Source: Thiothrix unzii (GTDB taxonomy: Bacteria; Pseudomonadota; Gammaproteobacteria; Thiotrichales; Thiotrichaceae). Taken from it: DNA of 64,000 nucleotides. Location: NCBI RefSeq assembly GCF_017901175.1, contig NZ_CP072793.1:2790001-2854000 (forward strand), given 5' to 3'. Both the position numbers and the translations under genes were made by a program. The notes below the pieces were generated by a model. It did not search any database. It was not told the origin of the DNA and was given only the letters and a program-made list of their open reading frames with translations. Of the stretch, positions 37,675 to 46,378 are shown in pieces. Positions within the stretch are counted from its first letter, which is position 1; each line of letters opens with the position of its first letter.

Positions 37675-38090
37675 ACCGTAAATTCCCCCGCCCTTCGACA
37701 ATGCTCAGGAACGGGGGGATATTACTGACTGTATGATTAAAACCGCATTGCCAGAGACTGTAAAGAAATCTGTGTAACTGCGTTTTGCTCATAAATCAAA
37801 CAAAGTCTTTGAGCCTGTCTTCAAACAGGAGCATAAAGCGAGTGAGCGATACAACCCGAACCACCTTGGCGAAAGAGTTTATCAGGCATTCCGATGGTGG
37901 GGTATCGGAACTGAACGTATGCGGACACGTATAAATGAACAGTGGTTAAGGATAACTAGCGATTCATTCCGGCGGATTTTTGCTACCCCAAAGCATCAAC
38001 ATAACGTTTATCTGTAACCGCTTTACAACCCGACACCACCGCCCTATCCTCCTGCGCTATAGAAAACCCATAAAAACAAGGCACTTTCGT
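37675..38090. other. Intergenic region with decayed coding trace
   Basis: 416 bp without an intact gene. Near 37690 there is a fragment CTTCGACAATGCTCAGGAAC resembling widespread short palindromic repeats. From about 37800 to 37975 one frame is open (FEPVFKQEHKASERYN, then AFRWWGIGTERMRTRINEQW) but has no start codon and ends near the next gene. It may be the remains of a gene; I cannot name it. Confidence 0.4.
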
Positions 38091-39680
38091 ATGTCCCAAG
38101 CAGAAGCGTTGTTTGACATTGTTGTCACTGGTCATAACACCAACAAAAATATCAGCGTCATCGTTAACGAGGTTCAAGCTCTCCTCAAAGACAACAGCCC
38201 GCAGTTGGAATTCAAGCTGTCTGATGCCTTATTGTTCGAGGGAAGAGCTAACGCGATCCGGGAAAACTTGAATCTCGAAGACGCGAAGGCGTTGGCACAA
38301 CAGTTACACAATCTGGGAATTCTTGGGCAAATTCGTCCAGCGTTACAAATTGTCGCTAAAGCACCGCAAACCGCCACGGTCAGCAGCGAGATTTACACCT
38401 GTCCTGCTTGTGGGCACAAACAGCCAAAGCAAACCCAAAACCACGAAGGACGACTCGAAAGCTGTGAAAAATGCGGGATCGTAGGTGAACGTTATCAGCG
38501 CAAAGCCCGCCTCAATCAAGCCATAGAAGAACAACAGCAAAAGCACAATCTCAGCCGCGACAAACAACTGGGTGAAGCTTTACGCCTCGCCAAAATCAAA
38601 GAAGATGCCATGCTGCAAGACGAAGCCAAACGTCGCTTAGGCTTGCTGGATGATGGTAAAACTCACCTTGGCATCAAAATCGCGGCAGCGGTTGCAGCCA
38701 TCAGCATTGGGATTGGCACGCTCTATTACCTCAATCAACCCACAGCGGAGGAGCTGGCAACCCAACAAGAAGCCGGGCAACTCCCTCAAGCCAATGGGTT
38801 AAGCAAAGCCATCAAAAACATCATTGCGCAAATCAAATCCGCCGCCGGAGCATCCAGCCCTGATGGCAATGGCGAAGGTATCGACGTAACAGCATTAACA
38901 GGCGATAGCACCACCGAGCCACTAGCGGAAACTGGGAAGACCGTACCAAAACAAGCCCCACTAGCACCAGAAGCGGTCAATGCAGTCATCAATAACGAAG
39001 AATGGAAAGATTTGCTTCCTGCTCGCTTCCACATGCCCGCAGCAGAATATCAGCAACAGGTGCAACGTTTACACGAACACCTCACTGCCAATCAAACCGA
39101 CCAAGCGGATACACTGATTACGCAAACCCCTGAAGCATATCCCCGTGTGTTACTGCTGCTGGAGATGACCGAATGGCACATGCAAAAGAAGCAACGCGAT
39201 ATGGCTTCGTTGAACCTCGTATTTATCCAAGCGGAATTGAGCAAAGCCGAAGATATTCCAACCCAAGCCCTGATTGCAGGCGTACTCAGTAAAGCGCACG
39301 CCTTGCTTGAGGAGCGCGAAGACAGTGAACACTTCCAACAGCAATCCGTTACTGTTGCTAAAACTTTGCCAGAAGCGGCAGAACAAGCAACGTTATTTAG
39401 CCGTTTAGCCAACGAACAAGCCTTATTCGCCAGCCCACTGGCTGCCCAGAATTTGCTAACGACAGCGCAAGAAATCGCAGAAACCTTACCCAATAACTCC
39501 GAAGCTCAATCCAATGCATTCGCGCAAATTGCGACCAGTCACGTTTTGCTTGCGGCTTATCCTAATGCCAATCGCTTGTTGAGTAAGGTACAAGATCAAG
39601 AAAAACGCCAAAAACTGGCAAAATTCATTGCCAGCCAACAAAGCCCCACCACGAAAGTCGTTGCAACTAACGCCCCTTAA
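38091..39680 (+). CDS. Membrane protein with zinc ribbon and helical repeats
   Basis: 529 aa from MSQAEALFDIVVTGHN; an upstream frame of 37 codons is unlike protein. Residues 1-95 look like a small alpha/beta domain, possibly with ribosomal L7/L12-like relation (EDAKALAQQLHNLG). A C4 zinc ribbon follows, CPACGHKQ...CEKCGIVG (about 100-130), then a transmembrane segment near 200 (IAAAVAAISIGIGTLYYL). A Gln/Ala-rich linker leads to a helical C-terminus with a tetratricopeptide-like look (EMTEWHMQKKQRDMASLNLV and after). No function can be assigned. Confidence 0.75.
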   Translation: MSQAEALFDIVVTGHNTNKNISVIVNEVQALLKDNSPQLEFKLSDALLFEGRANAIRENLNLEDAKALAQQLHNLGILGQIRPALQIVAKAPQTATVSSEIYTCPACGHKQPKQTQNHEGRLESCEKCGIVGERYQRKARLNQAIEEQQQKHNLSRDKQLGEALRLAKIKEDAMLQDEAKRRLGLLDDGKTHLGIKIAAAVAAISIGIGTLYYLNQPTAEELATQQEAGQLPQANGLSKAIKNIIAQIKSAAGASSPDGNGEGIDVTALTGDSTTEPLAETGKTVPKQAPLAPEAVNAVINNEEWKDLLPARFHMPAAEYQQQVQRLHEHLTANQTDQADTLITQTPEAYPRVLLLLEMTEWHMQKKQRDMASLNLVFIQAELSKAEDIPTQALIAGVLSKAHALLEEREDSEHFQQQSVTVAKTLPEAAEQATLFSRLANEQALFASPLAAQNLLTTAQEIAETLPNNSEAQSNAFAQIATSHVLLAAYPNANRLLSKVQDQEKRQKLAKFIASQQSPTTKVVATNAP

Positions 39681-39698: not shown

Positions 39699-40757
39699 TT
39701 AAACACACGACACCATCAAATCTTCCAGCTCGTGTACTTCGGTGCGGATGCGGCGCATCACTGGCAACAGCCCTAAAAACACCTCAAATAATGTCGGATC
39801 AAGGTGCGAACCCGCCATGCTTGCCATCAGCGCAATCGCGTCTTTTTCCGACATGGCTTTTTTGTAAACCCGCTCATGCACCAGCGCGTCGTAAATATCC
39901 ACAATCGAGGTAATCCGTGCGGCAATGGGAATTTCCTCACCTTTGATTTCACGCGGATAGCCTGTGCCATTCCATTTTTCGTGGTGACACAACGCAATCT
40001 CCGCCGCCATATCGAGCGCGGGAATATTGGAATCGTTGAGCATTTTCGCACCGATTTCGGTATGACGTTTCATAATCGAAAATTCCGCATCGGTGAGTTT
40101 GCCCTTTTTAAGCAAGATGCGGTCGGGAATGCCAATTTTGCCCAAATCGTGCATGGGTGCGGCAATCCGAATGTCGTCAATTTGTTGCGCAGGCCAATTC
40201 AGGGCTTTTGCCATTGCCGCAGCGTAAAGCCCGATACGACGCACATGCGCTCCGGTTTCTTCATCGCGGTAACTGGTTAAACTCACCAGCTTGATAGCGA
40301 TTTCTTCCTCACGCTGCTTGATTTTGAGGGTGCGCTTCTGCACTTCGTTTTCGAGCTTTTCCTGCGTTAGTAAACCGTTACGCACTTGCTGTAAACGGCT
40401 GACTTCTTGGCGGTATTTTTCGCCTAAATTTTGCAGTAGCAATACCGCTTGATTATCCACCCACAAGGCTGTGGCTTCGAGTGCGAGTTCATTGCCCAGT
40501 GCGTCGGTTTCAATCCATGAACCGGAGGTCAGCGGAAAGGCTTGTTTCGCATCCCAGTGTTGTTGCGCATCATCCATAAAGCACGTTAGGTACGGGAAAA
40601 CATCCGGTAACGCACAAGTCTGCGGACAGGATGACTTACCGAGGAAAAATACCAGCCAATCCGGTGCTGCTGCGTGCAAGGTGAAATCGCTGTCGCGTTC
40701 ATGCACGAACACCACGATATTGAGCGAATCGTAAATGGCAGATAGCAAATTAGTCAT
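39699..40757 (-). CDS. HD-GYP cyclic-di-GMP phosphodiesterase
   Basis: 352 aa. The N-terminal 110 residues look like a PAS-type sensor (SLNIVVFVHERDSDFTLHAA and on), followed by a coiled coil (about 112-155) and an HD-GYP domain. Metal ligands and signature are visible: H203-D204 in MHDLGKIGIPD and HHEKWNGTGYP (258-268). It should hydrolyse cyclic di-GMP, linking its operon to surface behaviour. Its ATG overlaps the stop of the GTPase gene by eight bases, so the two are translated together. Confidence 0.92.
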   Translation of the reverse strand: MTNLLSAIYDSLNIVVFVHERDSDFTLHAAAPDWLVFFLGKSSCPQTCALPDVFPYLTCFMDDAQQHWDAKQAFPLTSGSWIETDALGNELALEATALWVDNQAVLLLQNLGEKYRQEVSRLQQVRNGLLTQEKLENEVQKRTLKIKQREEEIAIKLVSLTSYRDEETGAHVRRIGLYAAAMAKALNWPAQQIDDIRIAAPMHDLGKIGIPDRILLKKGKLTDAEFSIMKRHTEIGAKMLNDSNIPALDMAAEIALCHHEKWNGTGYPREIKGEEIPIAARITSIVDIYDALVHERVYKKAMSEKDAIALMASMAGSHLDPTLFEVFLGLLPVMRRIRTEVHELEDLMVSCV

Positions 40758-41253
40758 GGCTAATTCCCCATTGTTGCGCTAATTGGGTGAAAACCTCGTC
40801 CACGCCTAAACCGAGTTTGGCACTGGTTTCTAACACGGGGTAGCCGGTTTGTTCGAGGGCACGAATCTGTTGCGCTTCCACTTGCCACTGCGCTTTGAGG
40901 TCAGCTTTATTCAGCGCGAATACCATCGGTAACTCGCCCACATTCGCTTTGACCATCGTATTGATCGACAACGCCACTTCCCACGAATTTTGGCGCGTAC
41001 CGTCAATCACAATAATGTAACCCGCCATCCCACGCAGGTAAGCGGTGCGGATATTGGTGAAATCGTCTTCGCCCGCAATATCCCAAATCACCAGCGAAAA
41101 ATCTTTACCGTTTAAAGTGAGTTGCTTCTTGTCGATTTTAACCCCGACGGTGGTGAGGTAACGATCACTGAACAAGCTATTCACGTAACGGCTAATCAGA
41201 CTGGTCTTGCCGACAGAAAACGAGCCAAGCAGACAGATTTTTTTTTGAATCAT
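40750..41253 (-). CDS. Ras-like small GTPase
   Basis: 167 aa, a nearly minimal Ras/Rab-type GTPase. G1 is GSFSVGKT (10-17), the switch I region contains T35, G3 is DIAGE (58-62), G4 is NKAD (115-118) and G5 is TSAK (143-146). Such stand-alone small GTPases are uncommon in bacteria; MglA in polarity control is the known comparison, though this protein looks closer to Rab-like bacterial GTPases. It lies between an OmpA-domain membrane protein and an HD-GYP protein in one operon. Confidence 0.92.
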   Translation of the reverse strand: MIQKKICLLGSFSVGKTSLISRYVNSLFSDRYLTTVGVKIDKKQLTLNGKDFSLVIWDIAGEDDFTNIRTAYLRGMAGYIIVIDGTRQNSWEVALSINTMVKANVGELPMVFALNKADLKAQWQVEAQQIRALEQTGYPVLETSAKLGLGVDEVFTQLAQQWGISHD

Positions 41254-41262
41254 GGTAAACCC

Positions 41263-42759
41263 CTAAAATAGCCCCACGCGGTAGCGGGTGCTGCGTTCGT
41301 TTTTCTGTAAAGTCGCGGGCTGCCCTGCTTGCGCCGCGCTATAAGCCACCACCGCGAATGCCGGAACGCCATTGCGTACCAGTGCATCACGTAAATTCTC
41401 GGCACGTTGTTGTGCTAATTTCTGGTTAATGGTTTCGTTGCCGGTTTGATCCGCATTGCCCACAATCATTACTTGAGGAATTTTACCGACACGCTGCGCT
41501 GTGCTCACCAAGCTTTGAATTGACTTACCGAGTTTAACCAAACTGATTTCGTCTAACGCCACGTCTGCTTTACCCAAAGCGAAAGGGTAATTGCTGGCTT
41601 CGATTTCGCGCGTCAAACCCGCAAGCGTGCGTTCATCGTCGCTGCGTTGCTGGGTTTTTTGCTCAATCTCTTGACGACGCTGGGTATTTTGTTGCCGCTG
41701 TTCGTCAGACAAAGTACGCAGGGACTGTTGCAAATCACTGGTATTAGCTTGTAATTGCTGTAAACGCTCATCCAAGGTTTGCATCGCTTGTTGCTGCGCC
41801 TGTCGCGCTTGTTCGGCCTGCTGTTGCTGTGCCTGCCCCGCCTGATACGCCGTATACAGCCAGAAAACCACACCAGCTAACACCGTTGCCAGCAATAGCC
41901 ACGCCAACCAAGGTGAACCTTGTGATTTACGCTGCTGTTGGGACTTCAGGCAATCGCTCAATAAGTTATTGGCATTGGCAAACAAGCGGGTGTCACCGTC
42001 ATACGCTTTAAACGCAGCGGCGTATTGGCGGTGAATCGCCGCAGACGTTTCCAGTAACAAGGCGTGTAATTCACCCGGCACAGTGCCGCGCACCACCATT
42101 GCCAGCACTGCTTGCGGGCCGTGTTCAATCACCACAGTTAACCCACCTAAACTCAGGGTGCGCAAGGTATCGGCCTGATTGACCGCGAACGAGTCGGCAA
42201 TAAAATCCTGAATTGCGGTCAACATTCCCGATACCATTTCCGGGTCTTTGCTGATGGCTTGCGGGGACTCAACGTGTTGCAGCAGTAAACCGCTTTCACG
42301 GTGGATCAAAAACACCTGTTCCACCTGATACACCAACGTGTGTAACAGTGCGACTTTGGCGTAACTTTGCCCGGTACGCCATGCATCAAACCGCCATTTC
42401 CACGAACGCAGCGACAGACTGTTTTCCAGCACCTGATTGAGGTTTTCTAAAGCTTCGCTCAAGGCTTGGTTAATGGACTTGCGAATCGCAGGCCCCATCA
42501 CCGGGTACAGCATGTCGGCAATGCGTCTGGGGTTATTGCTGATGGAACTGGTTAACGCCAGCTCCACCGTCGGAGCTAATGCCTCCGACAGTGAATCGTC
42601 TTGACTGCCACGCAACGCCAACGCCTCGGAAATAATCCCGGCGACACTGGCACTGTACTTGTCGGAATGCTCAAACTGTTCCTTGAGTGCCAGCAGTGCG
42701 TCGTAATCCTTACCGAAAAGTAAGCGGCGTAACTGCTCAACGTCGGGTGTCCCCGTCAT
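41263..42759 (-). CDS. Membrane protein with OmpA-type peptidoglycan-binding domain
   Basis: 498 aa. The cytoplasmic N-terminal 280 residues are followed by a single transmembrane helix (PWLAWLLLATVLAGVVFWLYTAY), a Gln-rich coiled coil (about 310-390) and a C-terminal OmpA-like domain (LGKSIQSLVSTAQRVGKIPQV, then GNADQTGNETINQKLAQQRAENLR). The segment VEQVFLIHRESGLLLQHVES followed by LSLGGLTVVIEHGP could be a roadblock/longin-like fold that contacts the GTPase; this is inference from pattern. The layout would join a cytoplasmic switch to the cell wall. Confidence 0.85.
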   Translation of the reverse strand: MTGTPDVEQLRRLLFGKDYDALLALKEQFEHSDKYSASVAGIISEALALRGSQDDSLSEALAPTVELALTSSISNNPRRIADMLYPVMGPAIRKSINQALSEALENLNQVLENSLSLRSWKWRFDAWRTGQSYAKVALLHTLVYQVEQVFLIHRESGLLLQHVESPQAISKDPEMVSGMLTAIQDFIADSFAVNQADTLRTLSLGGLTVVIEHGPQAVLAMVVRGTVPGELHALLLETSAAIHRQYAAAFKAYDGDTRLFANANNLLSDCLKSQQQRKSQGSPWLAWLLLATVLAGVVFWLYTAYQAGQAQQQQAEQARQAQQQAMQTLDERLQQLQANTSDLQQSLRTLSDEQRQQNTQRRQEIEQKTQQRSDDERTLAGLTREIEASNYPFALGKADVALDEISLVKLGKSIQSLVSTAQRVGKIPQVMIVGNADQTGNETINQKLAQQRAENLRDALVRNGVPAFAVVAYSAAQAGQPATLQKNERSTRYRVGLF

Positions 42760-42762
42760 GAT

Positions 42763-43248
42763 TTACACCGGATCAATCGACAGTTGACGGCTAACATTAT
42801 CCAGCAAGGTCGCGAGGGCTTTGCGGTCAATCTTATCCTGACGTAACTGTTCGGCGGCTTGTTTCAGTTCATTGAGCAAATCTTCGCGCTGCTGTTCCAG
42901 ACGTTGCGAGAACGCATCTTGGGTATGCTGCAATTGCCGGAATAAGCTTTCGATGCTTTTGCCAGTTTGCTCGTAATTTTTACGTGACACGCCCGCATCC
43001 GCAATCCGCGCCCGCGACTCTTCGGCTAACAGATCGTGAACAAGGTGTAATTCGTGGTTTAAGCTGTCGTGACTTTTACGAATATCATCACGCACGGAAT
43101 TGGTCCAAACCTTAACGAAACGCTCCAAATTCGCCAAACGCCGCTCACTGTCACGCGCCTGCTCACCGAATAGAATGTTGCGCACCATATCGAGGTTCTT
43201 GTCTTGTACTGGGGGGGTGAACTCCAGTTCTTCTGCTACTGTCATCAT
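42763..43248 (-). CDS. Coiled-coil protein of the GTPase operon
   Basis: 161 aa, highly charged. Residues 30-60 and 100-150 are strongly heptad-like (SERRLANLERFVKVW; FRQLQHTQDAFSQRLEQQREDLLNELKQAAEQLRQ in outline). First gene of the operon coiled coil - OmpA domain - GTPase - HD-GYP, with the next start only 3 bp after its stop. M2 is an alternative start. Probably an adaptor or scaffold; no known domain. Confidence 0.75.
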   Translation of the reverse strand: MMTVAEELEFTPPVQDKNLDMVRNILFGEQARDSERRLANLERFVKVWTNSVRDDIRKSHDSLNHELHLVHDLLAEESRARIADAGVSRKNYEQTGKSIESLFRQLQHTQDAFSQRLEQQREDLLNELKQAAEQLRQDKIDRKALATLLDNVSRQLSIDPV

Positions 43249-43406: not shown

Positions 43407-44225
43407 GTGGAGAATACCGCTCGCATTCACGACCCGTCGTCATACACCATCGCAGCCCAACCGTATTATTTACCCGTTGGCAATGAAGTGACTTTGTTTG
43501 AGGCCGCTTACACCAGCCATTTGCCGGTATTGCTCAAAGGCCCGACCGGGTGCGGCAAAACCCGCTTCATGGAATACATGGCTTGGAAACTGCAACGCCC
43601 GATGATTACCGTGTCGTGCCACGACGATTTGACCACTTCCGACCTCGTGGGGCGTTATCTGGTGAAAGGCGGCGAAACCGTGTGGGTCGATGGGCCATTG
43701 ACCCGTGCGGTGCGTTCCGGCGGCATTTGTTACCTCGATGAAATTGTCGAAGCACGTAAAGACACGATGGTGGTCATTCACCCATTGGCGGATGACCGGC
43801 GCATTATGCCGATTGAAAAGCTGGGGCAATTGCTGGAAGCACCGGACAGTTTCTGCCTTGCGATTTCTTATAACCCCGGTTATCAAAGCGTTTTAAAGGA
43901 ACTCAAACAATCGACGCGGCAACGCTTTGTGGCGATTGAATTCACTTACCCCAATCACGAATTAGAACGCCAAATCATTATTCACGAAACCGGACTAGAC
44001 ACCGCTACCGCCGATAAATTGCTGAAACTGGCGGACATGACCCGCAATCTCAAAGGGAACGGTTTGGAAGAAGGCGCGTCTACCCGCTTGCTAGTCCATG
44101 CCGGTAAATTAATGGCGAAAGGTATTGATCCGCGCCCTGCTTGCCAAGGTGCGGTGGCACTGGCGTTGACTGATGACAGCGACATGATTGCGGCCATTAA
44201 CGAACTCATCGGGGCGTTGTTTTAA
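43407..44225 (+). CDS. cbbQ: RuBisCO activase-type AAA+ ATPase CbbQ
   Basis: 272-aa MoxR-group AAA+ protein of the CbbQ/NirQ/NorQ family, which with CbbO remodels inhibited RuBisCO. Walker A is GPTGCGKT (45-52), Walker B is ICYLDEI (about 110), and the family-typical [20 protein letters not shown] lies between. The start is GTG preceded by TAGGAG. The stop/start junction with cbbO is one shared base (TAATG). In other bacteria the same pair activates nitric oxide reductase (NorQD). The assignment to Cbb rests on recalled sequence and the likely chemoautotroph host; no RuBisCO gene is in view. Confidence 0.85.
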
Positions 44226-46378
44226 TGAAAATGAGTAACCGCCCTTACAGCCACGACGTTTTACTTACCCGCCTTGAGGAACTTTACGAAGTCGAGTTTA
44301 CATGGCTGAAAGTCGAGCATTTGGTGGAAGGGCTGGTTAATCTCGACCGCACTACCCAGGATTTTATTATCGGCTGGGCGGAACGGCTGCTGACCACTAA
44401 CGTTTACATTAGCCACGAATTCATTATTCGGGTGGTGGATGCCATCGACAAAATGGAACGGCGCGTGATTGAAGCTTGGGCAGTCCACGCCGCAGACGTG
44501 TTTGACCGTGAAGGCTTGCGCCCTGCCCTTGAGGTCATTCAAAAAGTTGACAGTTTTGTGGGCAGTGCACTCGCGTTGGCTGAAGGCGTAATGTTTGAGG
44601 AAGTCGAGCCGATTCTTTCCACCTTCGTGTGCGGGCTTGCAGGGCGGCGACTGAAACTTGCGCAAGGCGAAACGGTTTACACCGATAGCGAAACCTTGCA
44701 TTTACCCAATATCACCGCACGTCTGGAAAAAGCCAAAGACAATTTTTTACTGTGTAAAGCGCAAGTTGCCTTTATGTGGGCGCAAACCCGTTTCGGTAGC
44801 TTTCGGGTAGATTTCGCCAGTGCCTTTGATGCTTACCCCAATAAAGCGCGGGCAATCGCGGTGTTCCACGCACTGGACACTTTGCGTATTGAAGCGTGTT
44901 TGAGGCGTGAATTACCCGGTTTATGGCGCGATATGCAGCAATTAGACGAAGGTACTTCTTCGCTCCCTTCACCCCTTGCGGGGGAAGGGCTGGGGATGGA
45001 CGGTCTTCTCACCCTGCAAGCACCCAATGCGACTGTGAACGACGTACTGGCGTTGCTCCCCCACGCGCTTGAACTCGAATTACCCACTCGCAGTTATTAC
45101 CCCGCGTTAAATCCTGAAGCGGTGCGTGCTTGTATGCTGGCACGGATGGAACGTGAAAAAATGTTGCTGCGGGTGAAGTTGGCGGAATTGGCGAAGGAGT
45201 TGGGGGAAACCCCTCCCCCCCCAGCCCCCTCTCCCGCAAGGGGCGAGGGGGAGGAAGAGAAAGAGGCGGATGTGCCGGAATTTGAGGTGCGTGAAACCCA
45301 AGAAGGCAGCATGGAATTGGTGCTGGATGATAAACCGATTGCGCCGCCGGACGATGTGAAGCAATTGCTGACTTCGATCATGCTGGATTGGGGTGAGATT
45401 CCACCGGAATTTCTGGTTCCTGCGGGCGATGGCGAATACGACCCATCACTGTATGAGGAAAAGGAAAACGACAGCGATCCTTGGAAAGGCACTTACCACG
45501 AAGACGGTGCGTTCCTTTACGACGAATGGGATCATGCACGGCAACATTACCGCAAAAACTGGTGCGTCTTGCGCGAAATCGACATTAGCCCCGCCGACCC
45601 TAGTTACGTCGAACACGTATTACACAAACATCAGGGCATAGTGAAACACTTGCGCCGCACTTTTGAGGCAATGCGCGATGAAAACCGCTTATTAAAACGT
45701 CAGGTGCAAGGCGATGATGTCGACATTGACGCGCTGGTGGAAGCCCTCGCCGATAGCCGTGACGGGCGTGAAATGAGTGATAAATTATTCATGCACCAGC
45801 ACCGCGCCGACCGTAATTTAGCGGTGATGTTCATGGTCGATATGAGCGGCAGCACCAAAGGCTGGATCAACGATGCCGAACGCGAATCGCTAGTCATGCT
45901 GTGCGAAGTGCTGGAAACGCTGGGTGACCGTTACGCGATTTACGGCTTTTCCGGGATCGGGCGCAAACGCTGCGAAATCTTCCGCGTCAAAAGCTTCGAC
46001 GACCCGTATAACGCCACTACCAAAGCCCGCATTGCAGGCATTACCCCAAAAGATTACACCCGCTTAGGCGTAGCAATCCGCCATTTAAGCCAAAAACTCA
46101 ACGAAATCGAGGCCAAAAGCCGTCTGCTGATCACCCTTTCCGATGGCAAACCAGAAGACTATTTCGACATTTACAACACCCAATACGGCATTGAAGACAC
46201 CCGCCAAGCCTTGTTTGAAGCGCGACGCACCGGGATTCACCCGTTTTGCATTACCATCGACAGGCACGGTAAAGACTATTTACCGCACATGTACGGGCAC
46301 GCAAATTGGGTGGAAATCGACGACGTGAAACAATTACCGTTGAAAGTCGCCGATATTTACCGGCGGTTGACGACGTAA
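44225..46378 (+). CDS. cbbO: von Willebrand factor A-type activase subunit CbbO
   Basis: 717 aa. The C-terminal VWA domain has the MIDAS motif DMSGST (about 540-545) and a later TLSDGKPEDYFD. The N-terminal 250 residues are helical and should dock on CbbQ. CbbO recruits the CbbQ ring to inhibited RuBisCO. The usual length is somewhat greater in linkers. Here the linker contains two in-frame insertions encoded by GC-rich palindromic repeats (PSPLAGEGLG near residue 250 and PAPSPARGEG near residue 335). Intact frame throughout. Confidence 0.85.
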   Translation: MKMSNRPYSHDVLLTRLEELYEVEFTWLKVEHLVEGLVNLDRTTQDFIIGWAERLLTTNVYISHEFIIRVVDAIDKMERRVIEAWAVHAADVFDREGLRPALEVIQKVDSFVGSALALAEGVMFEEVEPILSTFVCGLAGRRLKLAQGETVYTDSETLHLPNITARLEKAKDNFLLCKAQVAFMWAQTRFGSFRVDFASAFDAYPNKARAIAVFHALDTLRIEACLRRELPGLWRDMQQLDEGTSSLPSPLAGEGLGMDGLLTLQAPNATVNDVLALLPHALELELPTRSYYPALNPEAVRACMLARMEREKMLLRVKLAELAKELGETPPPPAPSPARGEGEEEKEADVPEFEVRETQEGSMELVLDDKPIAPPDDVKQLLTSIMLDWGEIPPEFLVPAGDGEYDPSLYEEKENDSDPWKGTYHEDGAFLYDEWDHARQHYRKNWCVLREIDISPADPSYVEHVLHKHQGIVKHLRRTFEAMRDENRLLKRQVQGDDVDIDALVEALADSRDGREMSDKLFMHQHRADRNLAVMFMVDMSGSTKGWINDAERESLVMLCEVLETLGDRYAIYGFSGIGRKRCEIFRVKSFDDPYNATTKARIAGITPKDYTRLGVAIRHLSQKLNEIEAKSRLLITLSDGKPEDYFDIYNTQYGIEDTRQALFEARRTGIHPFCITIDRHGKDYLPHMYGHANWVEIDDVKQLPLKVADIYRRLTT
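44961..45000. repeat. GC-rich palindromic mini-repeat in cbbO, copy 1
   Basis: CCCTTCACCCCTTGCGGGGG then AAGGGCTGGGG: a CCCC-TTGC-GGGG hairpin with purine flanks, read in frame as SPLAGEGLG. Related copies lie at 45204-45255, 61785-61832 and 62331-62394. Confidence 0.75.
45204..45255. repeat. GC-rich palindromic mini-repeat in cbbO, copy 2
   Basis: CCCCCTCTCCCGCAAGGGG and flanking C-rich and G-rich runs, the reverse orientation of copy 1. It is translated as PPPPAPSPARGEGEEEK, unlike the rest of the protein. Confidence 0.75.

Follow-up and report, generated by a model that had tools for sequence, protein, structure and literature searches.

The closest described relatives of the locus analyzed here are the Group 1 Rup systems, whose gene neighborhood was described from genomes in 2014 by Wuichet and Sogaard-Andersen (PMC4316618). 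It comprises a rup GTPase lacking the glutamine of the G3 motif; a predicted coiled-coil protein; a partner whose conserved domain was unknown and in many cases precedes a transmembrane (TM) helix and an OmpA domain; and, as the output, a signaling protein with an invariant Gln in its N-terminal region. Group 1 Rup has been called the prokaryotic group closest to the eukaryotic Rab/Ras/Rho GTPases (PMC4316618, PMC4915359). According to the 2014 study, no Rup member had been characterized, and no Rup gene coupled to MglB was found there; in the literature searched here, later papers cite the family without experiments, and no experimental study of any Rup system was found. We analyze four adjacent genes in a window of 64,000 nucleotides of the Thiothrix unzii genome (contig NZ_CP072793.1, positions 2,790,001 to 2,854,000), encoding, in the order of transcription from the minus strand, a coiled-coil protein, a membrane protein with an OmpA domain (hereafter, the OmpA protein), a Ras-like GTPase, and a PAS/HD-GYP protein.

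Judged by its sequence, this set is a Group 1 Rup system with an HD-GYP output; it is assigned so because every testable feature of the published description is found, that is, a GTPase without the G3 Gln, a coiled coil, an OmpA-domain membrane protein, and an output protein with the N-terminal invariant Gln. The kind was already known from genomes, and in this respect the sequence-only reading is not supported as stated: the set is not an unknown link. The module is widely conserved, was cataloged in 2014, and has apparently never been studied at the bench. Added here are a predicted Roadblock/longin domain in the wall-anchored partner, at the place of the domain that PMC4316618 called unknown; a motif shared by two of the proteins; and a socket-like PAS adaptor with many outputs. 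With a probability of about 0.6, we read the operon as a module in which the GTPase, under the control of a Roadblock platform tethered to the wall, gates the PAS output. The intergenic gaps of 3 and 9 bases, the 8-base overlap at the GTPase–PAS/HD-GYP junction, and the gene order agree to the base with the sequence-only reading, and the GTPase G motifs and HD-GYP signature that it listed are all present.

A genome scan yielded 80 named relatives (40–81% identity) from ten phyla, by record titles: Pseudomonadota, Acidobacteriota, Verrucomicrobiota, Cyanobacteriota, Thermodesulfobacteriota, Planctomycetota, Myxococcota, Nitrospirota, Campylobacterota, and Calditrichota. Among 78 loci with at least 3.5 kb of upstream sequence, the OmpA-type protein is found in 75, and the coiled coil, upstream of the OmpA gene, also in 75. 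The PAS adaptor is the partner most often retained (76/78), even in three loci (L026, L042, L053) where only the GTPase and the adaptor protein are nearby, with no OmpA or coiled-coil genes. The gene order recurs across ten phyla, far beyond chance; the gene set is therefore not confined to close relatives, so that the refutation named by the sequence-only reading, a lack of wider conservation, does not apply. The GTPase is present in 30 of the 63 genomes of the order of T. unzii and in 44 of 398 in the phylum sample; in the 3.72-Mb Thiothrix genome, the GTPase and the OmpA protein are each encoded once, and the adaptor at the N-terminus of the HD-GYP protein likewise has no second copy. The Rup operon of one contig labeled as a Klebsiella pneumoniae metagenome-assembled genome (L018) groups on the tree with Acidobacteriota and other phyla, the label probably being a binning error.

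The GTPase is a single-domain protein, its length falling within the Group 1 Rup limit of <240 amino acids (aa), with G motifs GSFSVGKTS (G1), WDIAGED (G3), NKAD (G4), and TSAK (G5). The catalytic Gln of G3 is missing in 88 of the 94 homologues, Asp63 is kept in 93, and the G3 residue Asp58 in all 94. Unlike the rest of the family, Leucothrix-like GTPases (L016, L028, L032, L105, L108, L110) have the canonical catalytic Gln in G3 (DLAGQD). The apparent long GTPase frame at L019 overlaps the frame of the OmpA protein and looks like a start-codon artifact rather than a fusion. The nearest solved structure is Rab23 (phmmer, E 2.6e-25), and the C-terminus is not of the lipidation type. Membership in the MglA family was rejected because the G3 Asp, replaced by threonine in MglA according to PMC3000849, is retained, and no PF03259 gene adjoins the locus.

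A Roadblock/longin fold is predicted for the cytoplasmic domain of the OmpA protein. The AlphaFold model of residues 1–285, based on an alignment of 62 operon homologues, has from residue 133 the topology helix, two strands, helix, three strands, helix, which matches known Roadblock/longin members. In the Foldseek comparison with PDB, all 50 matches listed belong to the roadblock/longin superfamily, 30 of them at E <0.001; they include TRAPP subunits, MglB, Mon1-Ccz1, Ragulator, Rag C-terminal domains, GATOR1, Fuzzy-Inturned, adaptor sigma subunits, and an Asgard roadblock protein, most of the matches listed being small-GTPase regulators. The profile of residues 112–262 scores 24.2 against Robl_LC7 proteins of neighboring genomes, compared to 11.5 ± 2.1 (maximum 18.1) for 150 column shuffles and about 11–13 for reversed or unrelated profiles, and the register of this alignment is that predicted by the fold. 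Residues Met179, Ala182, Phe186, and Asp189 of the central helix are invariant in 62/62 homologues; by the topology of the model, this helix (173–191) corresponds to helix 2 of MglB, through which MglB touches switches 1 and 2 of MglA (PMC6876712). Residues 130–240, which the sequence-only reading had singled out for complex prediction with the GTPase, were well chosen, as they fall in the predicted domain. Weak Pfam longin matches from single members of the protein family (Fuz_longin_1, E 0.014; Sybindin, E 0.02) mean little on their own; no Pfam Roadblock (PF03259) match was found in the OmpA protein, and a profile search of solved structures by sequence yielded nothing significant. A Roadblock-like partner diverged beyond the reach of sequence models may explain why no MglB was seen with Rup in PMC4316618.

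Similar to MglA/MglB of Myxococcus and Thermus, the locus combines a small GTPase with a putative Roadblock-fold protein encoded beside it, with a conserved central helix; however, the G3 Asp absent from MglA is present in the GTPase, there is no PF03259 gene at the locus, and the Roadblock-like domain, which has diverged too far for Pfam to recognize, is fused to a TM segment and a wall anchor. Actinobacterial conservons (CvnA-D) are also four-gene operons with a GTPase, a roadblock protein, and a signaling enzyme, but their GTPase is of the MglA type, the roadblock protein CvnB is separate, and there is neither a peptidoglycan anchor nor a PAS adaptor with swapped outputs. Eukaryotic Rab proteins with longin-type guanine nucleotide exchange factors (GEFs; Mon1-Ccz1, TRAPP, Inturned-Fuzzy/Rab23) share the pairing of a Rab-like GTPase with a longin/roadblock-fold partner, the fold being a prediction in the case of the locus; the results of phmmer (Rab23) and of Foldseek (Fuzzy-Inturned among the matches listed) lead to this comparison alike. 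Differences here are the bacterial wall anchor instead of membrane trafficking and the C-terminus that is not of the prenylation type.

The peptidoglycan-binding domain of the OmpA protein matches PF00691 with 32.6 bits (curated cut-off 27.2), and basic residues on the N side of the TM segment suggest the N-in orientation. The periplasmic part, too, is built from modules: in many relatives it combines a BON-like segment with OmpA, while the T. unzii protein has OmpA only, and the partner proteins of Leucothrix and Granulosicoccaceae end after the BON-like segment with no detectable OmpA domain (Leucothrix-like loci read: L016, L028, L032). Hence, a wall hook is the rule but can be dispensed with. 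For the coiled-coil protein, no Pfam family and no TM segment were found. Its N-terminal motif LxxxRxILFG aligns with LxxLRxLLFG of the OmpA protein (hhalign E 2.4e-5, score 26.1; shuffles 9.1 ± 1.7). Among 2,600 open reading frames (ORFs) of the loci, these two families are the only ones in which a motif of this type is convincing; it may well be a shared element for docking or co-assembly.

In the HD-GYP protein, the first 110 residues do not match Pfam PAS models, and a search of solved structures with the adaptor profile yielded nothing significant; however, the AlphaFold model of residues 1–111 has a PAS fold, and its Foldseek matches are LOV and PAS proteins. Gln123, in the long helix that follows the PAS core, is assumed to be the Gln of the published Group 1 Rup logo (PMC4316618). 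The catalytic motifs HDLGK (203) and HHEKWNGTGYP (258) are intact and align with those of the solved HD-GYP phosphodiesterase 4mcw (E 4.5e-52), so that the protein is predicted to hydrolyze cyclic di-GMP (c-di-GMP); the N-terminal PAS adaptor is a difference specific to the Rup module. The text of PMC4316618 names as the typical output either a fusion of diguanylate cyclase and phosphodiesterase or a histidine kinase. Of 54 outputs behind the adaptor analyzed here, 15 have GGDEF (14 with EAL) and 12 a histidine-kinase ATPase, and, beyond that description, 12 have HD-GYP, six a class III nucleotide cyclase, two a sigma-54 activator, and two a SpoIIE phosphatase. Parsimony on the GTPase tree (70 rows, many forks weakly supported) requires 12 or more switches of output class. 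By this pattern, the conserved partner of the GTPase is the adaptor rather than the enzyme. As the output domain is swapped among at least six types, c-di-GMP breakdown is the output of this lineage and not the general function of the module; hence, the proposed joining of a GTPase, a wall anchor, and c-di-GMP breakdown stands as genetic joining (75/78 loci, ten phyla), whereas its c-di-GMP part is not conserved. Four loci (L025, L040, L043, L049) encode two successive PAS-adaptor proteins, one of them a short variant without the W-rich segment; in L040 (Nostocales), the short variant is a stand-alone 132-aa protein.

The gene order, the domains, their conservation, the missing G3 Gln, the conserved adaptor Gln, and the swapped outputs can be read from sequence, whereas the Roadblock and PAS folds are predictions. 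On both we build the following scheme. The OmpA protein would sit in the inner membrane via one TM helix, hooked to peptidoglycan; its Roadblock/longin-like cytoplasmic domain, probably dimeric, would be the docking and regulatory platform for the GTPase, as a GEF, a GTPase-activating protein (GAP), or both; and the coiled-coil protein, given the shared motif, probably joins this platform. When in one of its nucleotide states, the GTPase would bind the PAS adaptor, switching the attached output, here c-di-GMP hydrolysis. Gln123 of the adaptor may complete the GTPase active site, in which case binding of the output would also end the signal, an idea of the 2014 authors (PMC4316618). We infer physical binding between the partners, the direction of regulation, the state of the wall or envelope as the input, and enzyme activity. 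The MglB precedent allows both GEF and GAP roles (PMC11016934); we lean toward GEF, as the GTPase is Rab-like and longin-type GEFs are among the structural matches.

Several observations weigh against this scheme. The model of the OmpA protein has a mean predicted local distance difference test score (pLDDT) of 76 and a predicted template modeling score of 0.52, residues 88–115 being poor; its Foldseek E-values are only about 1e-4 to 1e-3; and hhalign assigns a probability of 14% to the match of residues 112–262 with Robl_LC7. Covariation was assessed by mutual information in 113–135 GTPase–partner pairs (effective number of sequences 47–85). Of the top GTPase–adaptor couplings, 38–57% fall in the switch regions, which make up 15% of columns (p 0.01–0.13 by window placement, depending on the threshold); with so few effective sequences, and with confounding by ancestry, this is a suggestive hint only. 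The GTPase–Roadblock covariation shows no enrichment of the switch regions once one clade is removed. Finally, reciprocal loss of the G3 Gln and the adaptor Gln was not found: Leucothrix has both, while L047 and L050 have neither. Hence, reciprocal loss lends no support to the putative supply of a Gln in trans, although the conservation of the adaptor Gln fits it.

Of the other explanations, the best surviving, if unlikely, is that the GTPase is the final output, as has been proposed for conservons: the PAS/enzyme protein would sense a cue and set the GTPase state via the Roadblock platform, the target being unlinked, such as a polarity or envelope machine. PAS domains often sense, and conservons combine a kinase-like sensor, a roadblock protein, and a GTPase with no response regulator (PMC4316618, PMC13343842). 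However, the PAS protein fits an output better than an input, because its catalytic domain is repeatedly swapped while the adaptor stays constant; some loci also have two adaptor proteins.

Still less likely is a polarity or positioning device, in which the Roadblock protein and the coiled coil mark a site and the GTPase places the HD-GYP enzyme there for locally low c-di-GMP, e.g., at the filament tip or holdfast. MglA/MglB provides a precedent, and Thiothrix nivea is described in PMC3368414 as having rosettes and gliding gonidia; but the module is spread over many lineages with no close relationship, and their outputs include ones that produce no local messenger, e.g., the sigma-54 activators of Nitrospira.

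Control of attachment or gliding, a guess of the sequence-only reading, was rejected as a general function of the module, as both outputs and taxa vary. In T. unzii, c-di-GMP control of the switch between rosettes and gliding gonidia, given their presence in T. nivea, is plausible, but at another locus (L113 in Table 1) its genome also encodes an MglA-type GTPase together with a canonical Roadblock protein; the genome contains only two PF03259 matches, both far from the Rup operon, and canonical Roadblock genes of the L113 kind are found in 59 of the 63 genomes of the order.

That the cytoplasmic domain has some other alpha/beta fold, and that the products of the four co-transcribed genes form no complex, is improbable: the missing Pfam Roadblock match, modest model confidence, and weak hhalign probability would fit it, but the uniform Foldseek result, the shuffle test, and the gene order kept across ten phyla do not.

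If the reading of a wall-tethered platform is true, the Roadblock/longin-like domain would be a candidate regulator of Group 1 Rup, for which none was known; the Rab–longin pairing would extend to bacteria; and a GTP switch would link the state of the wall or envelope to c-di-GMP or to other outputs. More generally, the bacterial GTPases closest to Rab/Ras/Rho might have a Roadblock/longin partner within a wall-tied membrane protein, being a bacterial counterpart of Rab and its longin GEF that relays signals in general from the envelope to the cytoplasm, the PAS adaptor serving as a standard socket for unrelated enzymes; this we advance tentatively, at slightly short of even odds.

Table 1. 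Features of the Rup operon (window coordinates) and of the second GTPase locus (contig coordinates).
Feature	Position	Strand	Basis
Gene 1, coiled-coil protein, 161 aa, predicted cytoplasmic	42763..43248	-	ORF list
LxxxRxILFG motif, coiled-coil residues 19-28	43165..43194	-	hhalign
Gene 2, OmpA protein, 498 aa, single-span, N part cytoplasmic, OmpA domain periplasmic (predicted)	41263..42759	-	ORF, Pfam, hydropathy
LxxLRxLLFG motif, OmpA-protein residues 7-16	42712..42741	-	hhalign
Predicted Roadblock/longin-like domain, residues ~112-262 (core strands/helices 142-245)	41974..42426	-	AlphaFold, Foldseek, profile comparison
Central helix of Roadblock-like domain, residues 173-191	42187..42243	-	AlphaFold model, conservation
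TM segment, residues 285-303	41851..41907	-	hydropathy 2.04
OmpA-type peptidoglycan-binding domain, residues 417-488	41296..41511	-	PF00691 E 1e-7
Gene 3, Ras-superfamily GTPase, 167 aa (Group 1 Rup)	40750..41253	-	Ras PF00071 E 1e-33
G3 motif WDIAGEDD, catalytic Gln replaced by Glu62, then near-invariant Asp63	41062..41085	-	homologue alignment
Gene 4, PAS/HD-GYP protein, 352 aa, predicted c-di-GMP phosphodiesterase	39699..40757	-	ORF, PF13487, 4mcw alignment
Predicted PAS-fold adaptor (residues 1-111) shared by the outputs of Group 1 Rup	40425..40757	-	AlphaFold pLDDT 89, Foldseek
Codon of Gln123, in long helix after PAS core	40389..40391	-	kept in 62/64 homologues
HD-GYP catalytic domain, residues 162-323	39789..40274	-	HD_5 PF13487 E 1.7e-40
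Second GTPase locus L113: 180-aa MglA-type GTPase (G3 LYGTPGQERF), 215-aa protein, canonical Roadblock, PAS protein	contig C2, about 3165178-3168429

Two genes near the operon are on the plus strand. The convergent gene at 37980-39680 encodes a protein of 566 aa without a clear Pfam family, in which a TM helix and a CxxC segment resembling a zinc ribbon are seen. Divergent from the operon, at 44225-46378, lies the gene of a VWA-type protein downstream of an AAA+ gene (a CbbQ/CbbO-like pair); the in-frame low-complexity inserts of this protein, SLPSPLAGEGLGM and APSPARGEGEEE, resemble palindromic repeat elements that have been translated.

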